A stretch of 64,000 bases of DNA from Coffea arabica. Its lineage: Eukaryota > Streptophyta > Magnoliopsida > Gentianales > Rubiaceae. Shown here piece after piece: positions 4,106-62,339 of this stretch. Below the pieces are notes generated by a model. The model saw nothing but the letters and a program-made list of their open reading frames with translations. It had not been told where the DNA came from and did not search any database. Position numbers and translations under genes: made by a program. Every line of letters starts with the position of its first letter. Positions within the stretch are counted from its first letter, which is position 1. The stretch spans positions 20,788,001 through 20,852,000 of the forward strand of contig NC_092312.1 of the NCBI RefSeq assembly GCF_036785885.1. Reading direction: 5' to 3'.

Positions 4106-4209
4106 AAATATTATATACACTGACAGTGTATACACAATTACGGTTGGATGCATGACATATGAGTAAAATTTAGATTTTAATTTTAAATTCAGATAACTTA
4201 TCATGTATC

Positions 4210-5384: not shown

Positions 5385-5391
5385 CATGTAT

Positions 5392-5653: not shown

Positions 5654-5677
5654 AAATTTCTTTACTGAAGAATCTAA

Positions 5678-20177: not shown

Positions 20178-23100
20178 ATGGCTCCAAAGAAGAAACAGCA
20201 AAAGCAGAAGACGACGTCGTTATCGTCCTCTAAGTCAGGTTCGAAAGGAAAAGCTTCAACGTCGGCGTCGGTTACCAAACTTCAGATATCCGCGGAAAAC
20301 GAGAACCGGCTCCGCCGACTCTTGCTCAACTCCGGTCAGTCTGCGCCACCTCCGGCTTCCACTGCCACTGACGATGCTTTTACTAAGGAGCAGAAGGCCA
20401 AAAAGCTTCGTTCTGTTTATGAGAAGCTCTCCTGCGAAGGCTTCACTGATGAACAAATTGAACGCGCTCTCTCCGCTCTCAAGGTTAGATAAGGAAATCG
20501 AAATTGTCTTACTCAACAAATTAAAACATAAAGGAATCATTGATTGGAAAAAAAGGTATAGAGTATACGCGTACGAACATTTGATTTTCTTCAGTAATAA
20601 TTTCTGGAATTTAAAGTTAAATGGTTTTGTGGTTACCTTACCTGCATATTGCTTTACTTATGGTTGCAACCATGATTTGTCACCTTTAAGTCAGCTACGT
20701 ATCTGGTTTTTTAAGTAATTTAACTGGCTGTATTGATTGGAAAAACTGTGCTTGACATGGACTATGGAGGGTGCTGCTGGTTTGATTGTGTTTCTACTTT
20801 CTGTGTTGTCTGTAGATTGTAAATGTCCTTAGCTTGTTTTTCTAATTCGAAATAATTATGTTCTTTGTTTTCCTTGTTATGAGAAGGAAACTGCGACCAC
20901 CGAGAGTGCCTTAGATTGGTTATGCTTAAATTTGCCTGGTAATGAGCTCCCGCTGAAGTTTGCTAGTGGTACCTCTGAACACACAAATGGAGGTACAACA
21001 TACTTTGATTCCCATTATAACTTATTGAAGTTATGCGAGGGATAGGCAGAAGCATTTTTGATGAAATTAGCTTTGGTGTGCTAAACCCTGTGACTACTAA
21101 TGATGTACGCTGCCTTCAGGCTCTGTTGGTGTTGTGTCAATTGCAAGGGAAGATTGGGTACCTACAATGGATTCTTCTCCAGATGAAAGCAAGGATGAAT
21201 TGCTGAATTTTTCTGTTAAAGTTAAGGGGCAGCGGGATGATGAAACTTTAGAATCCTCTCAGTTATCTCAAGCGGACTGGGTACGCAAATATATGGAACA
21301 ACAGGAAGAGGTAAATTTGAAATTTGTAGATTCTACTAAATAGTCTTCCTTCCTTTGTCTTTCTCTTTGTATTGTATCATATTGGCTGGCTACTATAGTC
21401 AAAATTTTGGTTCTTAATTTCATTATGCAAATAGATTTAGTTTTGTTTTTTAGCTGCCTGCCCAGGGATCTGAAAATAGTTTCTTCAAGAATTGTTAGGT
21501 AACATATTAACTGGTTGTCTTTGATTACACACTTATTGTCATTTTAGGTTTGCCCGACAACAAGAAAAACTTAGGTATTCTTTGCCATATCATCTGTAAG
21601 AAATGATATGGTTCAATTTAGGAAAAACTTTGTATTTGCTTCATGTCAAGGTCGATGTTGAGTTTCACTCATGCTGTTTCTGATGTGGTCTGCTTGCATT
21701 TTGTCCACTTTGCTTTCACTGTATGTGGCATAGAAATTTTGCCGAACGTTTCTGTTATTTGGATAAGCTTTTCTTGTTGTAATGTGCAGGATGAGTCTGA
21801 AACATGGGAATCAGATCTGATTGAGTATGATGCTGAGAGAAAGGTACTCTCACTTTATGCTGTAAAGATTATTAAATTCAGTACACACACATATAATATA
21901 TAACCAGCCTGTATTATCACTCTTTCTTATACAATATATGGAGCATCATTATGGGCTACCACATGCAATTTTTTTGTAACATTGTTAGACACATACTATC
22001 AGCAAAATGAGCCTTGAATAACAACCTCGTGATGTAAAGTAATCTTGACATGCTACATTTCTATTACATATCCTGCAGCTCTTCGCAATCTTATTCATTT
22101 TTTTGGGTTGTACAAGGGGTTGCAGAGGGGAACTACCAAGGATGGGTGTTGAACTCTTGACCTTGGCAGGAGGAGGGACCTTTTAGGCCCCTCCTTGGCC
22201 AAGCCCCACCTTTTGTACAAATAGGACTATGACTCTTCCAGATTTCCAAATTCCTGTATTATTAGTGATAGTTTTTTCATAAAAATTATTTGTATTCTTG
22301 CATATGTATTTGGAGATAAATTTTATTGAACATCTTCAGTAATTTCCTAAAATTTTATTGAACATCTTCAGTAATTTCCTACCAAATTCTTTTTCTGATC
22401 TCAGAAGAATTAGAAAATATGAAGTATTTTTGGTTACGACATCCTTTCTAATTGATTTTGTCTGAATTTTGCCTTAATAGGTCCGAGAAACAAAGTTTGA
22501 TGTTGGTACTATTTTGAGAGACTATCACAGTGCAATGTCAGAAGCGGTTGGTGCCAAAGAGAGAGGGGACAAGGAAACCCAGAAGAAAGCTGGGCAGATG
22601 ATTCGCAAGATTGTGCAGCAGGCATCTGCCTTAGGTGACTTTTATAATAGCAACCTCTTGTTTCCTTTCTCCTCTATGTGGTGTTTTTTTCTGCGTGTAA
22701 TGTAGATTATTGATCAGGATTATCAGCTGATGTCTTGGCCTCTGATTATGAGCGTTCTTCCACTGCTTCCTTGAAGGATTCATGTTCTGTTTCCACGCCT
22801 GACGAGAACATTAATGCTGAAGATGCTACTTCATACATCATGGAACGTGGTACAGAATTAGCTCAGTCGGAACTGGAGGTTGACCAAAACTTGGTAAACG
22901 GCAACAGCTCAATTGAGTTCTTCAGTGAAGGAAACCTTTCAAGTTGCCCTGTAAAAGATGAAGATGCTTTAGAAGGGGAATCGGAAGATGTAGAGCTTGG
23001 TAATTTCTTGTTTGAAGATGCCCCAGCTGGTGATGTTTTTCCAGATGAGGTACTGGATCTACAAAAGAAAGAAAGACTAAGGGGATTATACAGTGAGAAA

Positions 23101-26100
23101 ACTTTTGAGAAACTAGAAGGCATTTGGACGAAGGTAATTTGCAATGTTAGATTATTCTTAAGTTGAACATCAAAATTTCTTGCTGATTTTTGTAGCAACA
23201 GCTGTAAATATTTTTTCGGAACTGATGACTAATTTGGCACTCTGAATTTTCTTCTTTGTATTTGGCTCTGTCTGCTTTGATGTTTTTCACCTCGCCCTCT
23301 TGTTATTTTTTAAGACCTATGATATCCCTGTGTTATTCTTCAAAAGTTTGTGCTTTCTTAGATATTATATATCATAGTTATTTATATTGTGTCATCTGAA
23401 TAAATGCAGGGAGATCCAAAAAAGATTCCCAAGGCTTTTCTTCACCAACTTTGTCAGCGAGAAGGGTGGGAGGCACCAAGATATAGTAAAATGCTTGACA
23501 ACGGAAATAATCCCAGTTACACTGTTAGCGTATTGCGTAAAGCTAGCGGGAGGGGTAAAAGCAGAAAAGCTGGAGGACTAATTTCTGTGGAGCTTCCATC
23601 TCAAGATTTGTTTTCTAGTGATGCTGAGGTGCAGTCTTGGCCCCATTTTTCCATCCGTCTCTTCTTTTTCTTTCGCTGACAATCCCGGTTCCTTTGCATA
23701 CTATGTTTATATATGTAAAATAAGTTCATTGCATCTAGATGTTTCGGTAGATGGTGCTTTCTTATTTTTTAGTACCAATTGCTTTCATTGGCTATATGTC
23801 TTACTTGTTTAGTCTGTTCTGTTTCTGGGATATTTTACCAAAAAGTTCATTGCATCTAGATGTTTTGGTTTCAATCTAGATCTGCTGATTTGATTGTACT
23901 TTGTGACACAGGATGCACAGAACAGAGTAGCGGCATATGCACTCAATCTCCTATTTCCTGACCTTCCTGTTCACCTGCCAATTGTGGAGCCATATGCTTC
24001 ACTTATTATACACTGGAAGGAAGGTAAACTTTAATATCTGGTTCATCTCGCATGTAAGTTAAGGTATTTCAGAAATTGCTAGCACAGATTTGGCTCTTAT
24101 GCACTCTCTGGCATAAGGTTGGAAATTCTGATCTTCTTAACCTCTCTTAAATCTCTTTAATCTTATGATCGTTTTAATGAGGACTAACAACCATTTGCCT
24201 CTAATCTCATAGGGCACCTGTCGAAAGACATTGAAGCTAGCATTAAAAATCGCAGAGCTGGATTCGTGGACTCATTGCTAAATGCTGCTGGGCCTGATCA
24301 TAAAGATACTGCAGATATCACCAGTAGTTCTCTGGATAATGAGTTTGAAATGCCTGATGCAAAAGAGACTACAAATGCTTCTGTAAAGTTGAAAGGTCGA
24401 GGTAGGTTATGATACTTAATGGTTTCCTGGATTAGTGGAGTTCTATAGTCATTTTTGGATGTGTGAGGTGGACTTTGAAGCATTATCCTATGTCAATTCA
24501 CTGTGATTCATCTGTTAGTAGTCCTAGTTTTCAATATTGCATCAAAAGTAGATTTTAGCTTTTGTTTACAGAAAGTTGCATATTGTCATCCAAATACATA
24601 AACAGTTGAGCCACTTGGATGGAATTGCAAGACCTTATAGGTCTTAAGCAGAGTAAAGTTTCATTTCTTTGTTGAAAATTGCCAGAGAAAGTACAATTTT
24701 TAACTTTAAATTCTGTCTCTCTTTTAATTCCTTTTCTTTATTATTTTGCAGCTACAAAATATAAAAAGGAAGCAGAGAGCTCTTTTCTAAAGACTGAACA
24801 AGAAAAAAGAAAGAAACTGCAGAAGTACCAGGTTTGTTCTTTCCTCTGTCAGCACTCTGACATAACAGGGACGGTAGGACCTTACCAATTTAATTTCCTT
24901 GATGATTCCTGCAATCCCTCGGTTTGGATGTTCACTATTTGTTTGAATATCCAGTGAAATTTGCTTAAGAATTTCAGTTGCGTAATTGCAGTTACATTAG
25001 TATTTTCAAGATTCTTGTGAAGGTTGTATATTTTTTTATAGAACCTTGAAATTCATGCTTGTTTTTTGGAATCCAATGAATAATTTGGCTACTTTCTTTA
25101 TAGAAATGTAAATTAGAGGTACATAATCTTGTTACTTTTATCTGAAGCAGAAGGTACATGGAAATCACAATTTTAGAATAGCCTGAAGATAGAGGTTAAA
25201 CTGAATTTTTTAATTTATTTGAGAAATAGGAAAATAAATTCTGTTGTATTCTATTCTTCTGGTACGCTTATACATCATAATTGGTTGAATTGTTCAGAAG
25301 TTATAGTATTAATATGGAATCCTGTTCATTTGATTTATAATTCTTTGTAGTAGATCATTTAATTAATTACCAACTAAGATGTGTCTTGATCAAGTTCAAA
25401 AAATTTAGTTTGTCTTCTAATTATTTTGACTGAGAATTGTAAATTTGTTCCATATGGTGAATTATTGATTGAGTATGGTTTATCTTTTTAGCTTTGTTCT
25501 TTTGGATGTTTGCTGTCAGGCATATATTTGGGTTGAATGACTATTTCTAAATAGGCCATGAGTGCTTCCTTTTTCTGGGCATTCATTTTATTTCCTGCCT
25601 ATCAAATACGGAAGCCTTTATTTGTTTATGATAGATATGGAAGTCTACACATGAATTTTACCTGGGAAACAATTCTTTAGGTCTTTTTTTGGTTCAATAG
25701 ATATTCATGTTCTTCATGGTAATTTTCTGTTTGTGTATATGGACTTAGATTACCGAGCCACAAAATTATGGGTAAAATGTTGACCTTGGGTTCATATTTA
25801 AGTTCTCCTTAACCTTGTTATTGCTGGAGTATGTAGTCATTGCAATTTCTTTTGATTGAGGTTTCTCATGATTTCCAACATGCTCCTTTGCATAGATTTT
25901 CTTTGATCTACATATTGTATGCTTCTAACCAGGGAATGTTGGAGTCTAGAGCTGCCCTCCCTATTTCTCAGTTAAAAGAAGATATCTTACAGTTGCTAGA
26001 AGATAATAATGTTTTGGTTGTTTGTGGCGAAACTGGATCTGGGAAAACTACTCAGGTGAATTTTTGATACATTTGTTAGTTTACACAAATTATATGTTTT

Positions 26101-27400
26101 GTATATGTTTTTCACATCAAATGAAATTTCTTTCTTTCCTTGTTTTTTATTTTCCTTTTATCTACAGATTCATGAATACTTTTCAAAGGTTTCTTGTGAT
26201 ATTTTATGGGTTTTCGCCCTATCTTGGGTAGTTATTTGTTTTGGTTTTGGTTTAAGTTTGAATCCTAATTAATGGTTTACATAGGTGCCACAACTTATAC
26301 TGGATCACATGATCGAAGCAGGACAGGGTGGGGACTGCAACATTATATGCACACAACCAAGGAGGATTGCTGTTAGTACATTACTTTGACTGCTCTTCTA
26401 CACATAAAAAATTTTTCCATTTCCATGTTGTGTAGCATTTGGGGGGAGGTTTGTGGTTTTCACTTCTGTTGATAGATGTCATCATTTTGTGATTTTGCCT
26501 GGTCTCAGTTCTTCGTTTGTATGAACACAAGTCTTTATAGCTGAATAGGTATTGTGCAAGTTATACAATCTAGCTAACATGGGATGAAATATAAATGCTC
26601 ATTAGGAATAATCAACTATAAAAGCTGTTTTGAGAGTTCAAATACATTTGCTACATTCTTTTGCAGGCTTGGAGTTTAAAAGGTGTTTTTATTTTCCAAT
26701 GTTTCAAAATCTGAATGTGTAGTCTAGAAAGTATTTCAACACAAGAATGAACTTGGACATGTTAATTTTTCTGTTAGGAAGTTTCCCAATCTGTCTAATA
26801 TTTTGGTTGGATTGAATTCTTTAGATTTTTGTGAAACCTGGGTAGCTGCTTTTGTTCCGTCATCTTTTCTATATAAACTGTAATTCTTGATGCATGTAAA
26901 AACCTCAGCCAGCAATTCATAGAAAGCTTGCTATGATACTAGAATCAGTGAGGAAGGATGACAAAGAGCAAAGGAAAGCTGAATATTAACGAGGGGTTGC
27001 TGTACTAGTTGCCTCAGGAAGATGTAAAAGGCTGTGTTGATATTGGTTTCTTTTTGATATAAATAAAAGAGAATTTCCAACTCTATTGTTGCATGTTGCC
27101 ATGTTTGAATAGCAAGAAAGTTATTTTTGAAAATTTTCACGAGAAAAATGGGGTGAGTGTCTTTTTTTGTTGTTTAACCAGAAAAAATTAGTATGCACTC
27201 AAAGCTTTTGAGGAATCCTGCAAGTTTGCAGGATAGTAGATGAGGAAAGTTTTGACTGCATGGAAATTAGTCCAAGCTTGCACAGGTTTAGGGGAAAAGG
27301 AAATTTTCTTGGCTGGACTTGTGCTATCTTTCAAAGACTGCCTAGAGTTTTATCTATTGACACATCACACGAAGTATCTATCCTGAATACTTGGGGATGT

Positions 27401-27455
<55 letters not shown>

Positions 27456-30400
27456 ATGAATTACCAGTCACATATGCATTGCATATTGCTAAAGATAACA
27501 TTTTGAAACTAACATCTAGCAACTCTAATGGGCCATGGCTAGATTTGGGGTGCTATGTACACAATTGGCACTGTCAGTCTGGACTGCTCTGTAAATGGAA
27601 TATATGAACTGGGGCAGTGGATAAATGCAATGACAATGGCCTCTTAAACTGTCACCATTCACAAAGTAGAGAATAATTAGTGTTGGAAAAAGATAGAGTT
27701 TGACTCTTACAGAAATTCCATGTGATCATGAGGTCATGCCAATGGAGCCATGTAAGCCATTTTTGATATATTATTGCTTCAGAAAATGTTAATACATGTT
27801 GCTTCTCCTAGACGCCTCGAGTCAGTAAATGTTTGTCTGCAAATGTGCTATATTGAACTGTGCTAATGCATGGGTTGCTTGTCATAAGATGCTAAATTAC
27901 AACCTGGTGCATATAGCTGATAACATTATTTTGGTGTTTAGGCTGTTTCTGTTGCTGAAAGAGTTGCAGATGAGCGTTGTGAACCTTCTCCTGGTTCAAA
28001 GGATTCTTTAGTTGGTTATCATGTTCGTCTGGATAGTGCAAGGTGACCATGTTTATCTTCCTCCTAATCTTTGTTCAATATAAGGGTTGTGAAAAATTAT
28101 TTTCTTGTAACATGTTTTTGGTTAGGCTCTGAAGAAGTTAAAATTTCCTTTCATTTGTTGTTTGTGTTTATTCTTTTCTATATTCTTCATTTCATAACTT
28201 TACCTATCTCAGAGCTTATCGTTACAGTTTTGCTTCTGGTTCTTCTTGTCACAGTTTCAATTATTTGGTTGCTATCATGTTACGACTACCGTGTCTAGTA
28301 TATCAGTTTGCTTTGTCCATATTCCTGGTTTGATATTTCTTGCATGCAGTGTGGCCCATGTTTAGATACTTCAGATATGGATTTGGGACTTAATTACCAA
28401 TGTCATTCATCTGTTGATATAGCGTAGCTTTAGTTTTTCATAAGTTTCCACTTCTTAGTACTGAGCTCGTTGGTTGTTCATCCATTCTTTGCTGTTCTAG
28501 GAATGAAAAGACAAAGCTTCTTTTCTGTACCACTGGGATTCTTCTGAGGATGGTGTTGGTAGGTGAAATTTTTTTTTTGTACCTAGAAAAAAATTTGTGT
28601 TTTTCTTTTTTCCCCCTGTGTATAGGAAGAGCCTTTCAGATGGAGATGAAGGCAAAGCTCTCTACAATGGCTTCTTTAAACTTTTTAATGGAAATTTCAG
28701 GGTAACAAAAATTTGGCTGGTGTTAGTCATGTCATTGTTGATGAAGTGCATGAACGTTCTCTCTTGGTAAGCTACTTATATTTAAGATTGAGCATATCTT
28801 TGGATTGCCTCAAGTGATAGATATTTGTGTAGTAGTATGTTGATGTGAATCTTTAAACAGATCATCACTTGTTTCATAATTTCCTTCATCAATATGTGAT
28901 GCTTTCTGGTGTTTTGTAGTAGTTCAAATGAGTTCATTTGTCAGTGGATAGACCAATATTGGGATTTTATGTTGAGAATTTTTGCCCAAGGAAAATTTCT
29001 TTTACTGCAAAGGTATCTCCAATGATGTGGGATTTAAATTTATCTTATTTATCTAAATTTATTTTTTCTGGCTTCATTAATTTTTTTTTTGTCTCAGAAT
29101 ATAGCTTCTTATCATCAGCACTGCATACTTATTTCAGAAAAACACGGGTTTGTGTGTGTAGGCATGCATAGTCATGTGTATATGTGTATATATCTATGGA
29201 AGTTTCCTAGGTTACTGCTGCCTCCATTAGCATGTAATCCTTTATCAAAAAGTTTTCTCTAGCTGCCTTTGATTTTCTTACAAAATTTTCAACAGGATAA
29301 GTTTTTATTGGATATGCCTGGTGCTTACGCCATGACAGGATATTTGATTGATTAGTCGAAAGTCTTTTTGAATATGTTAAGATCTGGTTATCTTTGTCTG
29401 CAGCATTTTCGTTGGCAGTGAAATGTCTTGTCTGATCTGTATTAATCAATTACAGTTCCCTAGAAAACTTGGAAAACTTAGAACCATTGATGAAAATGTC
29501 TTGTCTGATCTGTGCTAAGATGGAACATTTGGGGCTCTATTTTACAAACTTGATGAGTCACTTTTTGTTTAACAGGGTGATTTCCTACTCATTGTTTTGA
29601 AGAATCTGATTGAGAAGCAATCTGCTCACAGCACAACAAAGTTGAAAGTTATTCTTATGTATGGTTGCATCTATGCAATTTACTTATGTTACGCTGTTTA
29701 ATTGCTTTTTGCTATGTTCCTATTTGCTAAACTGATTTAACACTTGCCTTGTTTATTTCATTTGTGGTTAGGTCTGCAACAGTTGATTCACATCTCTTTT
29801 CACATTATTTTGGTGATTGCCCTGTAATTACTGCAAAAGGCCGGACACATCCTGTGTCAACTTATTTTCTTGAGGATATTTATGAACAGATTGACTATCG
29901 TCTCGCTTCAGATTCTCCTGCATACATAAATGATGAAACATTCTCAAAAGAGAAGGTACAGTATTAATTAAAAGCTTTCTAGCTTTTAGAACTTCCTTTT
30001 AATTGCTTTACAGAAACTTGCCAACTGCTAAGCTGTCTTAAAGAACTCCCAAATCTCAATTTATTTGCTGGTTGCTGTTGGATTGTTTGCATCATAGGCA
30101 AACTGAGCAAAACTTGATCGCATTTTGTTTGAAATGAATTTGTTCCTATCTGAATTTTTGACGAAATTTATTATGCTGACTCACTTAGTTGCTAAACTGC
30201 CAGAAAAGAATCAGCTGAAACCCACATCAGAGTGATTGCTTAAAGGCCGTATGACATTTTCAGTGAGTTAGGCTGTCATTCAAAAAATACTGAGCAATCA
30301 TTTGGACAAAAAAAATAGTTTACTACTCTAAAATACTTATCTTCCACAGATTTTTCATATAAACCTTTCAACAGTTTAAGCACAGTTGTAAACAACAATA

Positions 30401-33400
30401 AAAGCAGTCATTCTTTCTCAATTTCCAGTCCCAATTCTTCACTTGTTAGAGCCATTTTGTCACTGTATGAATCTCACCTCCTGTTTAGGTTATGCTGTTT
30501 AGTTTTAGTAATTATCCTTCTTGTAGGTAGTTTTATGTTCTAGTGGTTCTTCTTGTTGATATTTCGACTTAGCCATTGTCAACTTTGCGTTATGTTCTTT
30601 GCGCTTTAGATTTCATTGGATCATTTATCATGTTTATTTTAATTCAGGACAGGCATTTGGTTGACTGAGTTGTTTGTGATGAATGGAAAACTGTTGCCAC
30701 TGGTGGGCTAAAGGCTGTGCATCTCTCGAAGAAATCATTTATTTGTAGCGTCATTGTTTGGCTTCCAGAACTGTTAGGAATTATATTGCACGGAAGTATC
30801 ATGGAATTCTTTCAAAATCTGGAATGAGGTTTTGCTGATTGAAATGGCACTTTGTTTTCCCTCTCAGATGTTCATGCCTGCAGTATTTGCTGATGTGTTA
30901 TTGTCATTTTAATTGGGTTTCAATTTTTGTTCTTAAAGTTGTTCTCAAGTCACTGGTTTTAGTCACTGTTGTTCACCGTATGCTGTTTTGCGATTTTGAT
31001 ATTGCTAGCTAGGTGGTTGATGCTTAGAATGTTGGACTTCTTCTTCCCCTCCCTACGTATATTGAATTTGCATATGGTCTTTGGAGTCTGTTGCATCATA
31101 AGCACTTTCACAACTTAATTCTTTGTTTCAGAGGGCTGCTGTTGGTCATCACAGAGGCAAGAGAAATCTTGTTTTATCTGCATGGGGTGATGAAACTTTG
31201 TTGTCTGAAGACTTGATCAACCCATATTATGTTCCCATTCATTATCAATCACATAGTGAGCAAACTCAACAGAATTTGGTACCTTTCCTCTGATCTTTAT
31301 CCCAGTGTTGATAGCCTGCTGTTCAGATTTATTAATCTGGCCACATGTTGACAATTTTGGTATGTTTTTAGAGGAAATTGAATGAAGACATAATTGATTA
31401 TGATCTCCTTGAGGACCTGGTCTGCTACATAGATGAAACTCACCCAGAGGGTGCTATACTTGTCTTTCTGCCGGTAATAGCTTCTCTCAGAGTTTATTGG
31501 CTTCTTTGCTAAGCTTAATAAATATCTGAAGCAATACACATTCTTGGATCTTTTAACTAAGGGTTTTACTTTACCACAGTGAATCACATCCTGCTTCTTA
31601 TATATACTTCACCACTTGCATATGTTCTTAACATTTGGTGATGTATGCCAGGGAGTTGCTGAAATTGAGATGTTGCTTGATAAACTATCTGCTTCTTATC
31701 GTTTTGGTGGACCATCTTCAGAATGGTTACTTCCTTTACATTCATCTATAGCATCTGAGGATCAGAGAAAGGTCTTTTTAAGGCCTCCTGATAACATCCG
31801 CAAGGTAAACCCTGCAACTCTTATTTCTTGTCATCATGTATTTGACAGGACTGTCTTTGTTTTTTAGTTCTATACTTTGCATATGCTCTTATTGAACTAA
31901 ACTTGTATTTCCATCTCTTCCATTATATCCTGTTATCATTCTAACATGCTTTGCTTTATCTTTTCTTTTAAGTGTCTGAGGAAATGATGCTTGCATTAGA
32001 ATATAACATATGATTAGGTTATTAATACTGTTGTCATGTTTCTGCAGTGCATTAGCTTTTTTGTGTTGTTTACCCTTAAGTGCTAGCTTCCTTTTTTTAC
32101 TATAAGATGGAGAAAAATCAGCAGATTTATCCACCTCCTGATTGGCATCTATATTCTCTGCCATGCGAATATGACCGTGGAAAACAACTCTGTATTTTCT
32201 TCAACCTTTTTGCTCCTCAAGGTCTGGTTCTTATTTCTGGATGACGGATTTTTAATGAGAACATTTTAGCCTTAGGTTCAAATTGCTGTATGTGCTAAGT
32301 GTTATAATGGGGATTCTACTATGATTGCTTGTGAACTTGACCTAACCTTTTCTGTGCATGTTCGGACGTATGCTCATAATGATTGTTAAAGAAGAAGAAC
32401 ATTAACTTCTACTAATGATTTGTCATGTAACTCTAGCTAATGAAGCATATACAGGGAGAAAAACATTATTGAGTTCTAATTAGCATGTGAGATTAACTTC
32501 TACTAGTTTGATGCTGAAATAACAAACTTTCATTGTTTGTCAAGGAGTAGCTCAATGGCTGAAAGTTTAAGGGAATTTAAACTTGAAAGTCTATTCCTTG
32601 ATATTTAATTCAATCTATTGAATTTCTTCTTAAATTTAACATCTTTTAGTCCTCCAAATTTATGTCTACAAAATATTATGGACCATGTGAAAGTAGATGT
32701 GGTCATGGACTGCAGTACTGTAGGACTTATAAATGATTCATCATGGTGAATTATGTATGCTTTCTTTATTGACTCTATCAGAATCAAATAATCTTCTTCT
32801 GAAGGGAACAATCGGTTGAAGAGACCTTGGTGCTCTTTTTTTAGAGCAAACAGAAAATAAGTCTTCTAACTTGTCTGCTTAACCTTTGCTATTAAGGTTG
32901 TGGTAAAGATGAAGGTACTCTACTTTGTTTATCAATTATCTTGATAAGTTTATATTTCCTATCCTTTACATGTGCCAGGTCATAATTGCCACAAACATTG
33001 CAGAGACTAGTATAACAATTGATGATGTTGTGTACGTGGTAGATGCTGGAAAGCATAAGGAGAACCGTTATGATCCGCAGAAGGTCTCTATTTCTCTAAA
33101 GAACTTCCTTTGCTTAGATTGTAATGTTATGATTAAGTAAGGATGTTGCTTGCATTATACTTTTGTTATTTTGTCTATGTAGATGTTAAAGATAGCATAT
33201 TAGTATACTTCCTTGGTTTGTTTAATTGTAAAAAGGAATTCATGTCCTAGGCAGCAACCTTCCAGATCTGACAGGATAAATTCAACTCTGTTCTGACTAA
33301 AGAGTCTTGCCGTGAAAAATATTTCATGCTGCTAGTTTTTAACTTCGACTTGGAGAAATTGTAGAGCATGTGTCTATGTTGTATAGATTTTTGAAGGAAA

Positions 33401-36400
33401 CAACTAAAATATCACAAGAGCATATTTTTTAGCGACAAAAGAAATTTGAAGAACATCAACTGTTGTGATGTAGAATTATGTGCAGGAATGTATCATTAAG
33501 TTGTTCATTAATTTGTATTGATCTTTAGCATATCATGTCTGAATCCGAGTTACTTCTCATTCAATCCAAGTTGTTCCGCCTTAATGTATCAATCGTGTAG
33601 TTATTTTATTAACAAGAACGGGGAAATAATTACTGTATGACTTGTTTGTTTCTTAGGCAAAAAAATTTGCTGACTCAAGTCTCTGGTTGGAGATTTCTGT
33701 TCTTAATTTATTGAGACTGGATTGAACACTTTTTTTTATTTTTTAAAATTTTGCTGCTTCTGATTTTACATTCAGCAATGGAAGGTTTAAAAGCATTTTC
33801 TTTATTTGAAAAGTAGTTAGAACGGAATAGCTGAATAGAGAATGAAAATAATAAAGTTTGAACTATAGTACTTAAAGATGTGTAGTTCTTTAATATCAAT
33901 TTCAATTTTTTTCACATTTTCTCATACGCTAATTTGTATCCATTTTGTGGAGAATGCTACAACTTACTGAGTTATATTACTAAATTAGATAACAGATGGG
34001 TATCTGGAACTTGATACCATATGGAAGAAAAGCTTGTGCTGTCCTTGTGCCTGTCAGCATCTTGACATTGCGAAATTAGAGCACATATAGTACTAAATGA
34101 CATAATTGTCAGTTTCACTAATGATGCAACTTGACACTGGTTTCTTTCTATGACACTTGTCATTGCTTAGCTAATAAAACAGCTTCTTTTTGCTTTTAGC
34201 ATTGCTAAATGTAAGCTCTGTAGTAGGTTTGCTGTTTGACTCTGATAATGACTTTCTGGTATCAGGATGAAATCTAGTGGGGAAGACTTGTTGTATTTTA
34301 GCTCTAATGATGTGAGAGAAGAGGGAAAAGTGAATGTTAGGATGTCTAAAATATCCATGTGGTTACCTAAATTGTCATCAAATTTTATTTTCTGAGGTTA
34401 GTCATAAAGTAATGTTCTTTCTTCTGATCCTTTCATTCCTTTTCATTTACAATTTACCATTAGAAACTATCAAGCATGGTTGAAGATTGGATATCTCGAG
34501 CAAATGCAAAGCAGCGGCAAGGAAGAGCTGGTCGTGTAAAACCAGGAATCTGCTTTTGTTTGTATACACACCACAGATATAAAAATCTGATGCGCCCATA
34601 TCAGGTACTGAATTATTCTTCTACTGTAATTGGGCCATGGCATGTTGGCCAAGGTTTACACTTGTTTCAATGGATATGTAACTGTTTCTTCTCATGCACT
34701 CTTATTTTTGCGAAGATACCAGAGATGCTGCGCATGCCATTGGTTGAATTATGTCTGCAGATCAAGTTACTTTCGCTTGGTAGCATAAAGCCATTTTTAT
34801 TAAAGGTTTTGGTGAAATTGTTTGTAGCAGTATATGATTTTGTTCTGCGGTTCATTGTGTGAATTCAGAATCAAATTTCCTTTTTATGCACTATATTTGG
34901 TCATGATTTCCTTCACAATTATGTTGCTGTGTCAGGCTTTAGAACCACCAAGTGAAGAGGCTATCAGATCAGCAATTTCTTTGTTATATGAGGTATTACG
35001 TTTTTCCTTTTACCGGACTGATAGTGTAGTAAAGCTGAGCTAGGTGAGGTTGAATCGTCTGAGGTTTTCTCATTTGGTTCAAAGGGCTTAGGTTCAAAAT
35101 GAATCTGAGAATTTTCAACCTCCAAAAATATGCAGGCCAATACCTGTAAATCTGAAGTATATTACAAAAGTGCTTATCTTTTTAAGCCATGCTTATATTA
35201 CCACCTTCCTTGTCTCACTTTTTCTCTGCAGCTCGTGTTTTGTTGTCGATTGATCATGTCTTTGCTCTTTGTGTCCAATTCACAGTATAATTATTCAGAA
35301 GGAGAAGTATTAAATGCATATATTTTGGATGGATGTAAGAGTTTATAGGAGATAGGGCTAGAAAAGTGCCGGTGCACACAATGATTACAGTAGTTACTCG
35401 GTGATGATAGTGGGATTTTGTGAGATGGTCTATACATAAGCTGCAGAAAATGATAGGAGGGCTGTGGCCCTTTTTTGTAATTAACTCTTGTACTTTCAAG
35501 TGTTAATATATATATATATATATACACCAATATTGACGTTTGTTGAAAAAAAGTAGGAAATGACTGTTGGTTTGCAAGATACTTATTTACATTTTTGCTT
35601 TGAAGTTTGACATCGTTTGCTATGCTTGATACTAAATTTCACATTTAGGTGGGTGCCATTCAAGGAAATGAAGAGTTGACACCTCTTGGGTATCATTTGG
35701 CAAAACTGCCAGTGGATGTTTTAATTGGAAAGGTGTGTATAAATTAGCACTTCATTCGCCTCGTCTGGGAATTTTTGCACTTGGATTTTAGGCATTCAAT
35801 ATACTGTTGTTATTGAATTGAGTCTTCTGCTGATGATGCATAACATAGGTTATAATTGATATATCTGTTTATTGGTGGTATCTTGGGAACATTCTTCAAT
35901 ACATTACCATAATCTCTACTTTTAGTTGAAAATTTCTTAAAAGCTCTGTCCATGAGCAATATGATATGGTGGCATCAGTACAGAAGCAGTTTTAGGGAGA
36001 ACCTGTGTAAGCGTGACTAACTTGGCTTCTGATACAAGTTATCTCATCTGCGTGTGCTCCCTGGCCCTTGGAGTATTGGATCTTGAAAATTGCATGTCAG
36101 TCTCGCAATATCTCTTCCACTTGTGCAGTTATGGCTGTTCTGTGGATGAAGGGGTCACTTTTTTGGTGGTTTGGAGCAACAGAAAATTTGGTGTTATGTT
36201 AAAACTTCTTCATGCAGTAGATAAGATAAAAAAATTCTGTGGCCCATCATGATGCTCTTTTAACTGCCTGTACCCTTAGAAGATCTTTTCAAGCATGTAA
36301 ATAGTTTTACATGAAGCTAGCCTAGTTCTTCGTATGTCTTATATATGACACTTGTAGTCTCTGTTCCTTGATTATGTATAGAACACTGACTAGAAACATG

Positions 36401-39400
36401 TTTCAATCCAGAGTCATTGTTGGTGCCCTTTTGTTTCGCATTTACCTTTTGGTAGTGAACTACAACTGAAGTTAGACATCTGTATTCTGGGCTTTCTTGT
36501 GTTCTGCTTCTTCTAAGTAATACATATGCCCAATTTTCTCGTGTGACACTTGATCTATACCTCAATTGAGAACAAACTACCAGAGTCTCCATAAATATTT
36601 TACTTACCATCCTTATTCCATCAGGAATGATCTCAATTTAAATTGTTCTAACCAGAGTCAAAATTCTGATTTGAGTTGTGGTTTCCTGACTCATGCATGC
36701 ACCTCTTTATGTGGCTTGTGAAGAAATACCTGGCTATCGTTTTGTAGTTTATGCCGTGTAAGCTTCCTTGTTTGGATCTTTTTGTTCTGCATGGAAATAA
36801 ATGATGCAGTTCTTGATTTGTTTCAATGGTTGCTGAAACCATGTTGATTGAATTTGCAGATGCTAATATATGGTGGAATATTTGGATGCTTGTCACCAAT
36901 CCTGTCTATTTCAGCATTTTTGAGTTACAAATCACCATTCATATACCCAAAGGATGAGGTTCTTTCATAAAACCTACTTTATTGTTGTATTGAGGCTTTA
37001 TGGAGAATGATATTACATCGTCATATGCTTTATGCAGAAACAGAATGTTGACAGAGCAAAATTAGCATTGTTAACCAATAAGATTGGTGGTGAAAATGAT
37101 TCAAATGATGGGAATGGCCAGTCTGACCACCTATTGGTGATGGTTGCATATAGGAAATGGGAGAAGATTCTACGTGAGGTTAGTAGTTAGTTTCACCGTT
37201 GCCTGAAATTGATACGGTAAATCATGTATTCTTTGGGTGGCCACCACGGACACATGTTTTGTCATATTTTAGTGACTAAGATTATAACTTACTGTTGGAG
37301 TCAATTACTCCTAGTGAAAGTCTGGCAAGTTAATTACACTGTAAAATTATTCACTGATGTCAAAAGGGAATTTACAGTGTTTTTTACTATGTAATTCTAT
37401 TTATGTTGTTGAAACCAGTGTAATGTGGGAATTTGTTTATGGCATAATCCCCAGTCTTCTTCTGCAGCATGATCTACAAGTAGTATTTCTGAGTGTTAAT
37501 ATAAGATGGATATTTCCACCACTTTCTGCATAGTTATCCATGGATCTATTGAATAGGAAGTAGAAGTTTGGTAGACATGCTGACCTTCTAATGGAGAAGC
37601 ACGAGGCGCTGCACCTCAAAGAGAGTGCTGAAGTTGGCTCAAAGGACAGATGGCTTCATTTTGCCTAGCATTTGATATATGTATACGTTTATAATCTTTA
37701 TTTAGTGGATTAAAGGGGTTTCACTAAAAAATATCCGATTTGGCTGCTAACATTTATTCTTTCTATTGGGAGCTCATTTAAAGCTTCAAGCTAGTGAGAG
37801 GAGTGTGATTTATATGTGAATCATGACATACTTAAATGGCCTCTCATGCGTTGGTGGGTCAAGCATGTTTACTTTTAGCTGTGGGTGGGAAAGACTGAAG
37901 TTGGGCCTCTATTTCTTTTTGGGTTTAACTGTTAATGTGTCTTATAAACAAAATCCAGAAATTAAACTTATATAAGTAAGATGCCATTTGGCTTTTTAGT
38001 TATTGTTCTTTGGGTAACTCTCATGATGGTACTAATGCAGCTCAAAAATTCTTGCAGAATGGAGTCAAGGCTGCACAACGATTTTGCACCTCTTACTTTT
38101 TGAGCAGCTCTGTAATGTACATGATAAGGTTGGATTTCTTCTGATTTATAGCATTGTGTTCACAGGGCTGTGAACTGCATGCACACATTTTCCTCCCATT
38201 GCATGTATTTGTGGAGATTAAATGCATGGATGCCAAATACATGATACCTTAGAGGCTTCCATAAATTTGTTTATCTTTTGTGTATGAATGGATGGGACAA
38301 TATGTCATCTGGTTTTATTCAACGTAACTCTGGGTTTTGTAACTTGACAGATTGATTCTGAGAAGTACAGTGTGTCGATTTTTACTATATATCCTGATTG
38401 TTCTAAAAAAATTTCAATACTGCATCTTCCTTTCCCTGCCTTCTATTCTTTTTTTACAAATAATTTTTTTGTATAATGTGCCAGAGACATGAGAATACAG
38501 TTTGCAACATTACTGGCAGACATTGGACTGATTAGCATCCCAACGAGCTACCAGGTATTGCTTCATTCTTGCAGAGAAGTTATTAGTTGAAATTTATTCC
38601 TCGTTTGGATCTTTTTTTTTTTTTTTAACTGCTATCAAATTAGTGCTGGTCTTACTTTAATATCAGTTGTCTTAAGAGTTAATGGTGAAACATGTAATCT
38701 CCAGCTCTGACAAGCCGTTTGTGCAAGTCTAACATTCAAAACTGTTGATATTTTTTATTAAAAACCAATGCTCAAGTATAATATGAGTGTACTTGAAAGG
38801 TGCTTGTGTTGGGCCGTGAGGCTATAGATTGTCAAATAGCTTGGACAAACTAATGTTCTGTCAATGCTATGACTGGTACTTTTACAATAATGTTTTAAGA
38901 GTCACTAATTTCAAAAATTTGTCAAAAGCCTACCTAAACTAGATTACCTTTAAAAATGAGTAAGCTTCCACTAGATGCAGTTCTCTGCCAAGTGCCAGGA
39001 CTTCTCTTTAAATTCTTTGATTTTACTGTCTCTTCATTTACTGATAAGTCATCCTTAAATTCTTTGTTCTGGACCTTGGATTGATAGTCACGTGTTTGTT
39101 CTTGTCTTTTGAGGTTGTGTATGCTCTTGGAATTATATATTTGAGTGTTGAAAACTAACGACTGGTTATGCTTTTGAATCAGATTACAAGGAGAAAGCAA
39201 GACAAGCTTGACAGCTGGCTTTCAGATGCATCACAAATGTTCAATATGTACTCAAACCATTCTGCAATAGTTAAGGTAATAGCCTCATTCAATCCCTAGA
39301 CATATTTGTTAAAGATGACTTCTTCTACAGTCTTGCTTCTTCTTGAGTCTTCTGAATTACTTCAAGCAATTTGTGATGGTTAAATCATATGTTTATGTGC

Positions 39401-42400
39401 TTTCTTTCTTTTGTTCCATTTTGCACTAAACATTAGTTGATATATCTGATCTTAGGGAAATTTGGTGGAGGAATTGTGATTTGAGGCATACCAACTGCGA
39501 AGCTTTTGATGAATTTACTTTTCAAATTTTCTAACTAATAAGTAAAAGTTTTCATCCATTGCACTTTGTGTAACTGTGCTGTCTCACTGCAGAACATGTC
39601 AGATAGGTGAAGTTTGAATCTGTGACTTTAGATTTAGAAGGATTTTGAATAAATGAATTTGAAATCCTTGTTAGTCAAAATACATGGTTTGGTCCATCGT
39701 ATGGAAATACGGGATTTGCAATGAGGGATTTGAAATACACTGTATAATGAGTGAGTTTGGAATTTTCTTGTTTTAACATCTTAAATCCCTCCCCAACTGG
39801 TGGGATGGAATTGAAATCCAAGTCTTTGTTTTGCTAACCAAACAACCAAGGGTGTTCGGTTCAGGATTGCATATCCAAATGTGCCTAATCCATCAGAGAC
39901 CCATGAGGAACTTTAAATTATGATGATGTGACTTGTGCGACTTTTGTTGATGAGATTTTTGAAGCTTTCTAAGAAGGGAGGGAGGGAGGGAGAGAGAAAT
40001 TGTCATGACACTTGGATGGGCCTTGATATTTGGGAGGTACTAAGTGGCTTGTTAAGAGATAACAAAGTCATCTTTCATAGGTAAGGACCTTAAAATATCT
40101 CCAATTCCATGGCTACAGTACACTGCTTTGAAGTAGTGCTACAGTACACTGCTACAGTGCTTTGTGAAGTATACTGGAGTGTTAGGCTTAAACTACTGAT
40201 GAGTATGGAACATTTTGACCTGCTATTATGTGACAAAATTCTAATATTTAAAGTTGGTTTCACTAAAACAGTTGATCAATCACTTTGTTGCAGTTTAGTA
40301 TATGAAGAGGTTGAACACATGCTACTGATTTAAATGCATTCTTCTGTTACACCCATCTGGATTTGATTGCATTTGAGCTTTGCTAGATATTTATCCTTTT
40401 TTGGATGTAGGCAATTGTATGTGCAGGGCTGTAGCCCAATGTGGCCACAAGTGAAGAGGGCATTGTTGGATCAGCTCTTGGCACCCTTAAACGAAATGCA
40501 GGTTCTCCATCTAAGGGTCAGCCTGTTGTGTGGTATGATGGGAGAAGAGAAGTTCACATACACCGGTCCTCTGTCAACAGTGGTTTAAAGACCTTTCAAT
40601 ACCCATTTCTTGTCTTTCTTGAAAAGGTTGGTTTCTTGTCAAACTCCAAAATTTCTGTGATCTCAATTGTTTAAATCTTTGTTCTACAGCACGTCATTTT
40701 TATATGAAAGTATTTGGTAATTTGAAATTGTGAATCTTGCTCTAGGGAGGAATGCCCTGACTATTGTATTTAAGCAAAGCTAGAAAGGCTTTGATAGTGA
40801 ATTGAACTGGTTTTACTAGCTCAAGGATTTTGGAGTGGATTTGTAATCCATTAGCTACATCCGACAGATGTTTTGCCTGTACCTTTTGCAGAGTATTTCA
40901 GTTTTCGCATTGCTTGTTCTGATTTTTCCATTTGGACTCTAATGTACAGTAGTTATGTGCCAACATCTCTTCTTGGGTATCATTTTCTCTTCGTTCTCAA
41001 TGCGGTAGGTGTACAATATTATTCTCACATATTGGCTCTTCAGGTTGAAACAAATAAGGTATACCTGCGTGACACTACAATTATCTCTCCCTACTCTATT
41101 TTGCTGTTTGGTGGCTCGATAAACGTGCAGCATCAGGTACTTTCTACCTTCCCTTGGTGGAATTGCTGTAGTTTTGCAGAAGTGCTGTGTAACGCCTGTA
41201 ACTGAATTTTGTGTTGACTTGGTCATCAGTCTTGTTGAGATGAAAATGCAGACACTATGGCATTATCTTCACAAAATGCTTCTTCTGTAGTATTTGTCAA
41301 TATATAGCGTTGCACAACCATAAGGTTTATGGGTATTAATGAATTCATACCATAGATTCCCTTTTCCTCATGTAATCAAACTGCTTGTGGGAGAAGCTAG
41401 AGCAGAAAGAAAAGCTTTATGGTTTTGTTTGTTCTTTAATAGCAGTAACAGTGACAAACAAGGAGGGGCATGAAATGGTGAAGGGAAAAAGAGATAGCAT
41501 CTACTAAATCTTTTCAACTTTTACTCCTTTTCATAGGTTTCTGTAGTGTTTTATGCTGAAAGTTTGACTTCTTGAAAAGTATAAGGTTTTTGATGATTGA
41601 AAAATTATCAGATGAAAGATATGTGATGGATTTGGCCTAAGGTGAAACTTTAGATCTAGTTTGGCAACTCTTTTGTCTGTAACATGGCTCTTTCTGTTGT
41701 AAAACGTAATAGATCATTAAAAGAATATGAGCAGGATGACGTAATCCATCATAAAGATCAAAGAAAGGATAGAGGTCTGAGAAAAAGAGAAACAATGCAT
41801 TCCCAACTGACATGGACGTAAACATATAGTGCTTTTGAGCAGAATGACATAATACTGGAAAAGCATTATCATGTGCATTTTTTCTTTTTCTTCATAAGAG
41901 TCAAAGTAAAGAAAAAGGCTTTCAAAAAGTAGGAATTAGTTGTTCAGGCTGATTAAGGAACACTTATCTAATGCATATGGTGGCATTGGATAACCACTCC
42001 GTTCATTAATCCTCTAATCGAACAATGCTTACTGGTGATGTTACTGCAGACTGGACTGGTCTTTGTGGATGATTGGTTAAAAATGGCAGCACCAGCACAG
42101 ACTGGTGTGCTCTTTAAACAACTTCGCTTGACTCTGCATTCTATCCTCAAGGGACTGATAAGCAAGCCTCAGGTACCTTTATGGTTTTGTTTTCCCACAT
42201 GGTATTATTGCGTGACCAATAGTCTAGCTTCAACCACCAACATGATTCTGTTGCTTGCCTTCTTTTCTTTGTATGAAAATTATGTTTGAGGTGCTTTTAT
42301 TTTTATTGTTTTCCTACGCAATGCACTGGTGATATGATAAGACATTAATGTTTTGAATCCTTTCTTAATTTCTTAGTTGGACTAAAAACTATGCAAAACA

Positions 42401-45400
42401 TTAGCAGTTTATTGGGTAAGCAACTGCTAGATAGAGGTGGCAAACTGGATATTTTGGATCATACTTGGTTTCATATTTTTGGTTCATAGATTATATGATC
42501 CTATCCTCTTAAATCCATATAATAAATGGTGGTGTGTGGATTGGATCTAAATGGATGATGGATATCCAATTATCCATTTAAAAGCCATTTAACTAATCCG
42601 CACTGTATATCATAAGTTCATAACCACATGTACATGGATTACTTAGAGGCCTGCAACAGAAAAAGGCCTCAGATACATTGAGAACTTCATTTTTGTCCTT
42701 TTGTATACTAACTTTTCTTTTTAATCAAATGGACTGCTCCTAATGAGTCCCTTAATTCTGATTTGGATTCAAATTCACCATATAGCAAAACAAATGTAAA
42801 TATTTGCAAAAAATCTGAAGATCACACTTCTCAGACTTCAATATCCCCAAAGAACCTTTGATAGTACAATATGCATTTTACAAATTTATCAAAACTTGGA
42901 AGATGGCCTTTCCAAAGTGCACGTCACACAATTGAACACAGAAAAGTACTTAAAAAGTCGAATTTCCTTTATGAAAGCAATTACTCTTTTATATCAACTC
43001 TGTATCTTTTTTCAGGATTTGACATACTTTAGTAAGAAATCAGGCAAATAAGTGAATAACGTCACTTCAAAAATTTTTTTATAGGGTAAAATAGAAAATA
43101 ACCCCTCATGATTTAAATACACACATTGACCCCCTATGGTTTAGAACCTTACATTTTAACTGTTTTTTTTTTTGGAATTACATTTTAACCCCTTATGTTT
43201 TAGACTAATGTGATCTGTTAGAATTAACAGTCAAATGGTGTTAGTCATACTTTTTATTACGGAACAGTGATGAAATTACTCAATTAACTTTAGAATAGAG
43301 GTTAAAATGAATTTACAGAAAAACTTTGAGGTCGAAATGAAATTTCTGTTATTGTTTTCTCCTTCCCCAGCTAAGCAACAAGAGTGGTGGTAGATCTATT
43401 CCTCTCCATGGCCCTATGAATTCCAGCCACTGTTCACAAAACCCATTGAAGCCTCCCCACCATCTCCGTCCACTTTTAATGCAGATTATTACTATGACAA
43501 TAATTTATCCAAACCCGTTAAAGCCTATCCAAACAACGAAAATCATTTTTACTTTTTTCATCAATTTCAACATAGACGGCCAAGCACTTCCTCGTTTGGC
43601 CCAAACCTGCATTTTGATTTTTAAAACCCACCAAGAAAATTCAACAAAGGTGTTTGTGGTCTCGGTGAATCTATGACAGCAGCTGTGTGTTTTTCATTTC
43701 TTTGAGCTGTCGTTGCGCTTGAGCGGCCTAGACTATTGACAGAAAGAAAACTGAGTTTTGGATTTTTTTTTAAGACTAATTAGTTACAGGAATCAACTTT
43801 TGGGATCAATTTTGTTTGATGAGAATGAGGGTGGCTGATGAATGATAGTGATGGGTCTGATGACTACCAAGCTTCTTCTTCTTTGGGAGAAGATAAACAT
43901 GGGAGCTGCCTGCTGGGGAGGGAACAGAAAGAGATAGACAAGTTAGATTATATCTTTCTTCCTTTTTCCTGATAATTGGATAAATATGGATAAAATGGTT
44001 TATCCATTTAAATCCACCAATTTAATTGGTTTTAAATGGTTATCCATTTGAAGTCATTAGATTTATTTTAGTCATCCAAATCCATATAATAGTGGTTTAC
44101 ATGGATGGATAAGTGGATTTCAATCCAGTTTGCCGCCTCTACTGCTAGATTTATTTGGCTTATAGGTATTGGATCCCACGTGCTGCTTCTTATAGTCTGT
44201 ATTTGGTATGGAACAGTTTCCAGAAATTGAAAGGGAAATTAACGTCGATCATTAGAAGGAAGAACTTGTTCATGACTTACTGCAGTGCTGCCCCTCCCTC
44301 TTTCTTTCTGGTTTGTTGCTGTTGAATTTGATAATTTAGCCAAGTTGTAAATTTTTTGAAAAAAGTATAAGACACTTTCATCTAATACTGTCCCAATTGA
44401 GTCCATTGATGTTAAGTCAATCTTAGTCCTTCCAATATACCCTACATAGTTTTATTTGTATACGTACCCAACATTTTATCTGACTTTAGCTAACTGAAGG
44501 CATCATAGGTATAGCTTAAGATCTATTCATGGGGTAAGGTTGGGGCAAGAGACTGTTGGAGAGTGTGGTTTAGAAATGAGGGACGGCAGGAAAGAGAGGT
44601 ATAGAGACAGTGCGAGACAGAACCACAGGGAGAATGCAAGAGAGATTGAATTTTGCCAGTACTACACCCTTGCCTCATAGTTTTCTTCGTTTATCATGGA
44701 TAATGCAGTTTGTTTTGGACCTTTGAACTCATATATGGAGTTAAATGCTTTCACTTGGACTCAACATGGAAATGATTTTATATCCACCATCTGGGTAGCT
44801 GGAGACGGGACAAAGATGTGCAAGGGGTTTAGAGAAGCAATGGAAGGACCTCCCATGTTGAGTTCATTGTTGTTAACTTAATATTAATCTTCTAATTTAT
44901 CCTATAAAAGGTTTAATTGTATGCGAACCCATCATTTTCCTGATCTCGCCCAAATGATGGCATAGTAGGTAAAGCTTAAGATCTATTGGGTGGGGTTGGG
45001 TTGGGGCAGGAGACAGCTGGGAGAGTAGGGTTCAGGACAGGCAAGAGGTATGGAGACAGGGTGAGACAGAACCGAGGAGGTAGTGCCAGAAAAATTGAAC
45101 TTTTCCAGTATTACACCGTACCTCGTGATTTTCTTCATTCAGGATGGATAATGGGCTGAATGTATAAATTGTTTTGATATCCGCCAGCTGGGGTAGCTTG
45201 AGACTGGAAGGAGACGTGCAATGGAAGGTGGGGGATGTTGAAGGTCTGGAAATAAGTATGGTTACATCTTACATGTCAGCTTTTCATTATTTTTTCTTCT
45301 TGGCTGCTATTTTAGATGTGGTTCATTCTTAATTAATAACCATGAAGAAACAAAACATAAACATGGGAGATCATGGATCATAAAAGTTACATATGAGCGG

Positions 45401-45899
45401 GAGGTTTGGAGAGCTAGAAGGGTTGTTCTATTAAAGAGGTCCCAGATGTCTTTGTTTACAAAAAATGTGGTCATAATACTTGCTTAGAGAACATAATGAT
45501 TTTCTGGATTCTGAGGTTGGCTAATAATTGAATGGAGTACCTGGGCTGATCCGATTGAAGTTCTTCAACGTATGTGGTTGTATTGATCTCAGGTTAGGAT
45601 TGCTAAACCCAAAATATTAGGACTTCTCTCTCTTTGGATTTATTCTTGCTTTTCCTCCGGCTTTCATACCAAACATTTGTTACACGTGCTTAACAGGTGC
45701 TGATATAATAATGTTGCCTGAGTCATATATGCTTGTTACACTTTCTGTCTCTTGTTGATATATTATATTTCACTCCTTGCACTTTGATGTAATGAATGAA
45801 TTTCCGTTACCGGCTTTTCAGGCTGTATCAGTCACAAGTAATGAAGTTCTTAGCTCTATAATTAATTTGTTTCTGGAAGAAGACAAAGCCGTGAAGTAA
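20178..45899 (+). CDS. DExH-box ATP-dependent RNA helicase, DHX29-like (DExH7 type), with in-frame TAG
   Basis: A large DEAH/RHA-family helicase. The animal relative DHX29 helps 43S ribosomes scan structured 5' leaders; the plant role is inferred. There are 34 exons, joined in phase to 1463 codons (Arabidopsis DExH7 is about the same): 20178-20483, 20887-20992, 21120-21310, 21790-21843, 22481-22634, 22718-23133, 23410-23628, 23912-24023, 24213-24401, 24752-24831, 25933-26055, 26285-26371, 27942-28042, 28501-28558, 28701-28766, 29576-29658, 29772-29955, 31132-31278, 31372-31473, 31652-31804, 32979-33083, 34464-34604, 34716-34805, 34936-34992, 35649-35732, 36860-36958, 37038-37178, 38058-38128, 38485-38554, 39183-39275, 40411-40626, 41044-41136, 42050-42172, 45822-45899. 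The N-terminus is Lys/Ser-rich with a UBA-like helix set at about 77-102. A dsRBD-like block ([19 protein letters not shown]) is in exon 7. Helicase motifs are GETGSGKT (641-648), TQPRRIA, DEVH (746-749), SAT (783-785), [13 protein letters not shown] and QRQGRAGR (1029-1036). The HA2/OB-fold C-terminus follows. Codon 1302 is TAG, with good coding sequence after it. Confidence 0.95.
22098..22225 (-). mobile_element. SINE-like unit in helicase intron 4, antisense
   Basis: On the minus strand the order is an A-box-like ttggccaagga (about 22190), a B-box-like agttcaacaccc about 40 bp later, a short body, and a final run of seven A (22104-22098). This is the layout of a tRNA-derived SINE. The target duplication was not found. 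It lies in the intron between exons 4 and 5 of the helicase gene, opposite in direction. Confidence 0.45.
22318..22381. repeat. Two-unit 32-bp tandem repeat in helicase intron 4
   Basis: The word aaattttattgaacatcttc and its following bases occur at 22318 and again at 22350 almost without change, so this is a recent slippage-type duplication. Confidence 0.8.
27401..27448. repeat. (GA)n microsatellite in helicase intron 12
   Basis: About 21 GA units with one break (gagagtgaga) at the left end. It lies in the 1.57-kb intron between exons 12 and 13. Confidence 0.95.
40432..40434 (+). other. In-frame TAG inside helicase exon 31
   Basis: Exon 31 opens after a good acceptor (T-rich tract, then gatgtag, ending at 40410) and must be read in phase 0, because exon 30 ends on a full AAG codon. 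The eighth codon is TAG (40432-40434), between CAGL and PNVA. Helicases of this family have Tyr here (CAGLYPN), so a single T/C-to-G change in a TAT/TAC codon explains it. Translation would stop after 1301 of 1463 codons, losing most of the OB-fold end. The frame is open again right after it to the normal stop at 45897-45899. The base after the stop is C (TAG CCC AAT), which does not match the known plant readthrough context CAR-YYA. Confidence 0.9.
42432..44141. mobile_element. 1.7-kb non-autonomous hAT element in the last helicase intron
   Basis: TIRs tagaggtggcaaactggat at 42432 and atccagtttgccgcctcta ending at 44141 are inverted with one mismatch. The perfect 8-bp duplication ctgctaga lies at 42424-42431 and 44142-44149. 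Subterminal words atccatttaaa and atccatataata recur on both sides. No transposase frame is present. The interior (about 43080-43980) is unlike the ends and includes another likely MITE (about 43080-43345, gggtaaaatagaaaataacc). Confidence 0.88.
44390..45238. repeat. Diverged tandem duplication in the last helicase intron
   Basis: Unit 1 (about 44395-44855) and unit 2 (about 44858-45238) share a long ordered series of words: ttaattgtat-cg-accca, ggcatcataggta or ggcatagtaggta, aagcttaagatctatt, ggttggggca, agagacag or its variant, ccagta-tacacc, ttttcttc, tggataatg, gatatcc, tagct-gaga, caatggaag. Unit 2 lacks about 85 bp found in the middle of unit 1. Both are non-coding. Confidence 0.7.
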
Positions 45900-61112: not shown

Positions 61113-62339
61113 ATGGCCGTCCTCCCCCTCCTCCTCCGTATCCGCCGCCGCCACCAGTGCCTCCACCACCAAATTCGCACTTTTATAAATGCCAAAGTGA
61201 AATGGGTACGCGACCCCTACCTCGACAAAGCCGTTGAGAATGAGAAAAATCTTAAACCCTTGCTCTCACTCAAAAATCTAATCATGTCTCAACCCTCCGA
61301 AACCTTACCCCTCTCCTCCATCTCCCCGCTAAAAACCCACCTCAATCTCCCCACCACCGCCTCAAAATTCGCCGAAAATTACCCCTTAATTTTCAAAATA
61401 TTCAATCCCCCGACCAAGAGGCCCATGATCGCGTCCCATCCTCATGTTAAGCTCACCTCTAAAGCCATATCTCTTCACAACGATGAAACCCTAATCTTGA
61501 ACCTCTCGCATTATAAGAAAGATGTTGCAGAAAGGCTTGCGAAGCTTTTGATGCTGACAAGAGCTAAAAGACTCCCTTTTTATGTGATTGACAAGTTTCA
61601 GTTTGATTTGGGATTGCCCCATGATTATAAATTAAGCTTCTTGCCTGATTTTCCTGATTATTTTAGTATTTGTGAGATGGGTTTTAAGGATTTTAATGGG
61701 TACGAGGCGTTTGGGTTGGAACTGGTGAGGTGGAGGGAGGATTTGGCGGCGTCATTGGTGGAAAAGTTGGCTAGAAATGAGGGTATAATGGGAAGTAAGT
61801 TACAGTTTTCGATGAATTTTCCAAGGGGTTTTGATTTGGAGAAGAGGGTGAAGGACTGGGTTGAGGAATGGCAGAATTTGCCCTACATTTCGCCTTATGA
61901 GGATGCTTTTCATTTGGCTCCAAATAGTGATCAGGCAGAGAAATGGGCGGTAGGGGTGATTCATGAGTTGCTTTCTTTAATGGTGTCAAAGAAGATGGAG
62001 AGGGACAATGTGTATCTTCTGGGGGATTATTTAGTGTTCGGCTTAAGGTTTAAGATGGCTTTAGTACGTTATCCAGGGATCTTTTATGTGTCCAACAAGA
62101 TTAGTACACAAACTGTGGTTTTAAGGGAGGCATATAGGAAGAATTTCTTGATTGAAAAGCATCCATTGATGAAAATGAGGTACAAGTACATCAAACTCAT
62201 GAATACTGTGATGAGAAGAGGTAGACCGATGCCAGATAGTGTTATGCAGCGCAGGAAGCGATCAGCCAATGCTGCTAAAGGAGGCAAAAGAAAAGAAAAG
62301 GGAGATGAATGGACAGAACAAATGTCAAAGATTGCATGA
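61113..62339 (+). CDS. PORR-domain organelle RNA-binding splicing factor (WTF1/WTF9/RPD1-like)
   Basis: An intronless 408-aa protein of the plant organelle RNA recognition (PORR) family. Known members bind group II introns and promote their splicing in plastids (WTF1) or mitochondria (WTF9). The first 25 residues (MAVLPLLLRIRRRHQCLHHQ and on) are Arg/His/Leu-rich with no acidic residue, which suits a mitochondrial presequence better than a plastid one. The PORR domain begins at VKWVRDPYLDKAV (about 29-41) and runs to about residue 370. It includes KDVAERLAKLLMLTRAKRLP and the typical GLELVRWR and FPRGF blocks. The tail is basic (RRKRSANAAKGGKRKEKG). The start is the ATG that keeps the presequence next to the conserved WVRDP. 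I cannot say which PORR subgroup it is. It is divergent from the EMB8-like gene, with two MITEs in the 1.4 kb between them. Confidence 0.93.
   Translation: MAVLPLLLRIRRRHQCLHHQIRTFINAKVKWVRDPYLDKAVENEKNLKPLLSLKNLIMSQPSETLPLSSISPLKTHLNLPTTASKFAENYPLIFKIFNPPTKRPMIASHPHVKLTSKAISLHNDETLILNLSHYKKDVAERLAKLLMLTRAKRLPFYVIDKFQFDLGLPHDYKLSFLPDFPDYFSICEMGFKDFNGYEAFGLELVRWREDLAASLVEKLARNEGIMGSKLQFSMNFPRGFDLEKRVKDWVEEWQNLPYISPYEDAFHLAPNSDQAEKWAVGVIHELLSLMVSKKMERDNVYLLGDYLVFGLRFKMALVRYPGIFYVSNKISTQTVVLREAYRKNFLIEKHPLMKMRYKYIKLMNTVMRRGRPMPDSVMQRRKRSANAAKGGKRKEKGDEWTEQMSKIA

Follow-up and report, generated by a model that had tools for sequence, protein, structure and literature searches.

The window, a stretch of 64,000 nucleotides of Coffea arabica DNA (contig C3, 20788001-20852000), contains a gene that, judged from its sequence, is a DHX29-type helicase (Table 1). 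Its exons were assembled by dynamic programming, which scored splice sites and codons and gave extra weight to 26 peptide cores taken from the window's own reading frames. The raw model consisted of 49 segments, and removing 15 fillers by hand (2 of them of zero length) leaves the 34 exons. Dropping the 15 fillers, singly or in combination, leaves the phase unchanged, and the reading frame at codon 1302 is therefore independent of them. Plant DHX29-like proteins guided the choice of exon frame, and none of their letters entered the computation. The resulting window allele has 4392 coding bases, or 1464 codons including the final stop, with 33 introns and a single internal stop. The preliminary description had placed an in-frame TAG at codon 1302 of a 34-exon gene, and the rebuilt model agrees with it on both the number of exons and the number of the codon.

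Table 1. Features of the helicase gene in the window, in window coordinates
Feature	Position	Strand	Remarks
DHX29-type DExH RNA helicase gene, window (C3) allele, 34 coding exons	20178..45899	+	gene model, Pfam, PDB match
Exon 31, 216 nt, phase 0 at both ends	40411..40626	+	contains the stop; the OB-fold starts here
Premature TAG, codon 1302 (Tyr in the C4 allele)	40432..40434	+	window sequence and C4 comparison
AG made by the nonsense codon, candidate acceptor	40433..40434	+	use removes 24 nt (8 codons including the stop), in frame
Exon 32, 3' of the stop	41044..41136	+	open
Exon 33, 3' of the stop	42050..42172	+	open
Exon 34, terminal	45822..45899	+	carries the normal stop codon

The identity of the gene is most readily read from the uninterrupted allele on contig C4, whose protein has above-cut-off Pfam matches to UBA_DHX29, DEAD, Helicase_C, HA2_N, HA2_C and OB_NTP_bind; a seventh match, to nSTAND3, falls under its cut-off. 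The DEAD, Helicase_C, HA2 winged helix and ratchet, and OB-fold matches make up the core of the DEAH/RHA family. The UBA_DHX29 match (PF24899, residues 76-128, E 1.3e-16, 60.5 bits against a cut-off of 27) lies N-terminal to the helicase core, and the OB_NTP_bind match occupies residues 1293-1392. The best PDB match of the C-terminal 853 residues is a DHX29 chain (22tu_DH, E 1.3e-184). The C4 allele resembles DHX29, the DExH-box RNA helicase of 43S initiation complexes, both in its domain order (UBA_DHX29, DEAD, Helicase_C, HA2, OB-fold) and in this PDB match, which spans 846 residues. The window haplotype departs from this pattern because its frame, instead of running for 1463 codons, stops at codon 1302.

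By position, every Pfam domain of the window allele except the OB-fold precedes the stop; the OB-fold match is 100 residues long and keeps just 9 of them. The interrupted codon corresponds to a tyrosine in the sequence AGLYDN of a DHX29 chain and CAGLYPK of four DHX36 chains (the 5 alignments displayed, from 71 PDB sequences matched), which bears out the earlier statement that the family conserves Tyr at this site. The TAG is followed by 161 clean codons in the remainder of exon 31 and exons 32-34, and over this stretch the gene's frame is open while both other frames are interrupted by stops, as expected from the earlier remark that clean coding sequence continues through three more exons. 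That description put the loss at 162 C-terminal residues; 161 residues follow the stop, and the larger figure holds if the lost Tyr is counted. The three exon junctions downstream lie 194, 287 and 410 nt past the stop.

Comparison with C4 accounts for the premature stop as a difference between two otherwise similar alleles. All 34 exons align at full length without indels, every donor and acceptor dinucleotide is identical, and the C4 allele, 1463 codons long with no internal stop, encodes Tyr at codon 1302, making it an intact homologous haplotype. The search for a second intact copy that the preliminary description had proposed thus found one on the homologous contig. The two alleles differ at 45 codons, 25 synonymously and 20 nonsynonymously, the latter comprising 19 amino-acid differences and the stop (pS 0.0255, pN 0.0059, pN/pS 0.23). 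The introns diverge by 2.3% (480 of 21171 aligned bases), a level at which the C3 and C4 copies look like ordinary alleles. If nonsense changes were under no more selection than synonymous ones, the 25 synonymous differences would imply 3.1 (with transitions weighted) to 5.5 (without weighting) nonsense differences in this gene; one is observed, and since the haplotypes are more than 2% apart at silent sites, a single nonsense difference is unsurprising. After the stop, the alleles differ by 4 synonymous codons and 1 nonsynonymous codon, which indicates a tail without decay so far. This pattern supports the earlier suggestion that the change is recent, as does the fact that the 4392 coding bases contain no second stop, no frameshift and no altered splice dinucleotide. 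A degenerate haplotype was considered and rejected on the 25 synonymous and 20 nonsynonymous differences and the same lack of further lesions. In intron 24 (window 34993-35648), the C4 haplotype is about 0.8 kb longer than C3.

Searches of the whole assembly (1.198 Gb, 131 contigs) point to no more than these two alleles. A 341-base DNA probe around the stop and exon 31 hits two sites, one on C3 (100%) and one on C4 (99%), and an exon 6 DNA probe likewise matches exactly two, again at 100% and 99%. A 144-residue protein probe gives 14 matches, of which 6 are pieces of the C3 and C4 helicase loci and the other 8 are paralogs of 39-50% identity that are paired on C11/C12, C3/C4, C7/C8 and C21/C22. 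Only one of the 14 has an internal stop, and it is C3 exon 31. No third close copy of the helicase was found with the DNA and protein probes among the best candidates scored across the assembly, a search that a further diverged copy could escape. Within the reach of such searches, the helicase appears to be single-copy per haplotype. A processed or duplicated pseudogene was rejected, because the DNA probes found only two near-identical places and both keep the 34 exons and 33 introns. Genes with a PORR domain are also mostly paired on neighboring contig numbers. The contigs seen run in pairs, and the assembly appears to behave as a phased diploid with two haplotypes; numbering of the pairs up to C21/C22 hints at 11 chromosome pairs.

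These observations favor a heterozygous nonsense SNP, a recessive loss-of-function polymorphism on C3 with the C4 allele intact, to which we assign a probability of roughly 0.88. The most serious competitor, though an unlikely one, is a consensus base error in the C3 contig, in which case the plant would have both alleles intact. A single assembled base supports the stop, a point in favor of such an error. However, the change is a substitution outside any homopolymer, many clean haplotype differences lie nearby, and the haplotypes show 0 frameshifts relative to one another across the helicase coding sequence. Four other long frames in the window (47423-48628, 61116-62336, 18146-18934 and 51552-52082) are also open in both haplotypes; two of them are gap-free, a third carries a 7-nt gap that lies before the likely start codon, and the fourth a 6-nt in-frame gap. 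Assembly-wide, an internal stop occurs in just 1 of 35 PORR-domain matches, so stops in reading frames are uncommon.

The remaining alternatives accept the stop and give the C3 allele a product nonetheless. It is very improbable that the stop is bypassed in RNA to yield a shortened C3 protein, either by splicing to the AG that the nonsense codon itself creates or by skipping exon 31. Both routes keep the frame, since the new AG lies 24 nt past the native acceptor and its use deletes the stop, and the phases at the ends of exon 31 make in-frame skipping possible. On a simple approximate matrix, however, the new AG reaches -0.6, whereas the native acceptor has 3.7 and an intervening out-of-frame AG 3.0; none of the gene's 33 native acceptors scores so low. 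Splicing to the new AG would also lose the conserved start of the OB-fold, and skipping would lose most of the domain. The specific version in which the stop's own AG serves as the 3' splice site, dropping the 8 codons to leave a near-normal C3 helicase with an altered OB-fold edge, is fainter still. Least credible of all is a truncated protein of 1301 residues that is produced, has its own function and is maintained by selection. Such a protein would keep the DEAD, Helicase_C and HA2 matches, which all precede the stop, but the three downstream junctions predict decay of its transcript. Work on relatives argues in the same direction: according to a review, Pfa1, the partner of the related helicase Prp43, does not stimulate a Prp43 version that lacks the OB-fold (PMC4322301), and a DHX29 study models the N-terminal bundle next to the C-terminal helix, between that helix and the linker (PMC8682770). 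The preliminary description had left three options open, and of these a null or truncated allele is favored because C4 is intact, nearly all of the OB-fold is removed and three junctions lie downstream, whereas a functional shorter protein and a base-call error are disfavored.

If the heterozygous nonsense SNP is correct, then a single-base change on the C3 haplotype would have converted the conserved OB-fold Tyr codon to TAG. Plant introns more than 50 nt downstream of a stop are described as triggering nonsense-mediated decay (PMC3711448), and with all three junctions beyond this distance, intron-based decay of the C3 transcript is expected. Most C3 transcripts would accordingly be degraded, and any that escape could give a 1301-residue helicase without nearly all of its OB-fold and its C-terminal tail, which would probably be inactive. 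Loss of C3 function is most likely, judging from the position of the domains, and the plant would then live on the C4 allele. Among the papers listed in literature searches, none dealt with a plant DHX29 truncated at its C-terminus.

The observation of the C3 stop holds, and it most likely represents ordinary natural variation. In the phased tea genome, premature stops are reported in 297 allele pairs (PMC8346365), and the text seen of the corresponding ginger article gives no count of such pairs (PMC8342452). The tea pairs are similar to the present case in that one allele is intact and the other prematurely stopped; they differ in coming from another assembly, whereas here one gene was checked by hand. 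Here, what looks on C3 like a broken gene most likely represents a heterozygous allele, and the homologous chromosome settles the matter from inside the assembly. If the stop is confirmed in reads, then this plant would be naturally heterozygous for a knockout of a DHX29-type gene for which no other close copy was found in the assembly, and segregation among its progeny could be used to ask whether plants need the gene.

Several further features of the window and of the PORR-domain family were observed along the way. Two segments of the window (1-5823 and 11918-12637) align weakly with the C4 pieces compared or have no alignment listed, pointing to haplotype-specific insertions. The frame at 18146-18934 on the minus strand has 262 codons and a weak WEMBL match below cut-off, is open in both haplotypes, and is the one whose 7-nt gap, in C4, lies upstream of the likely start codon. 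Between the two alleles of the PORR-domain frame at 61116-62336 (PF11955), 11 amino-acid differences stand beside 9 synonymous ones, so the ratio is high. Elsewhere in the assembly, a PORR copy at G000:C12:13015799-13016479 has an internal TGA and no C11 partner among the matches listed, and it is possibly a haplotype-specific extra copy that is breaking down. The frame at 47423-48628 is CCDC47-like, with 402 codons open in both haplotypes, and given its partial match to PF07946 it is probably a first exon.
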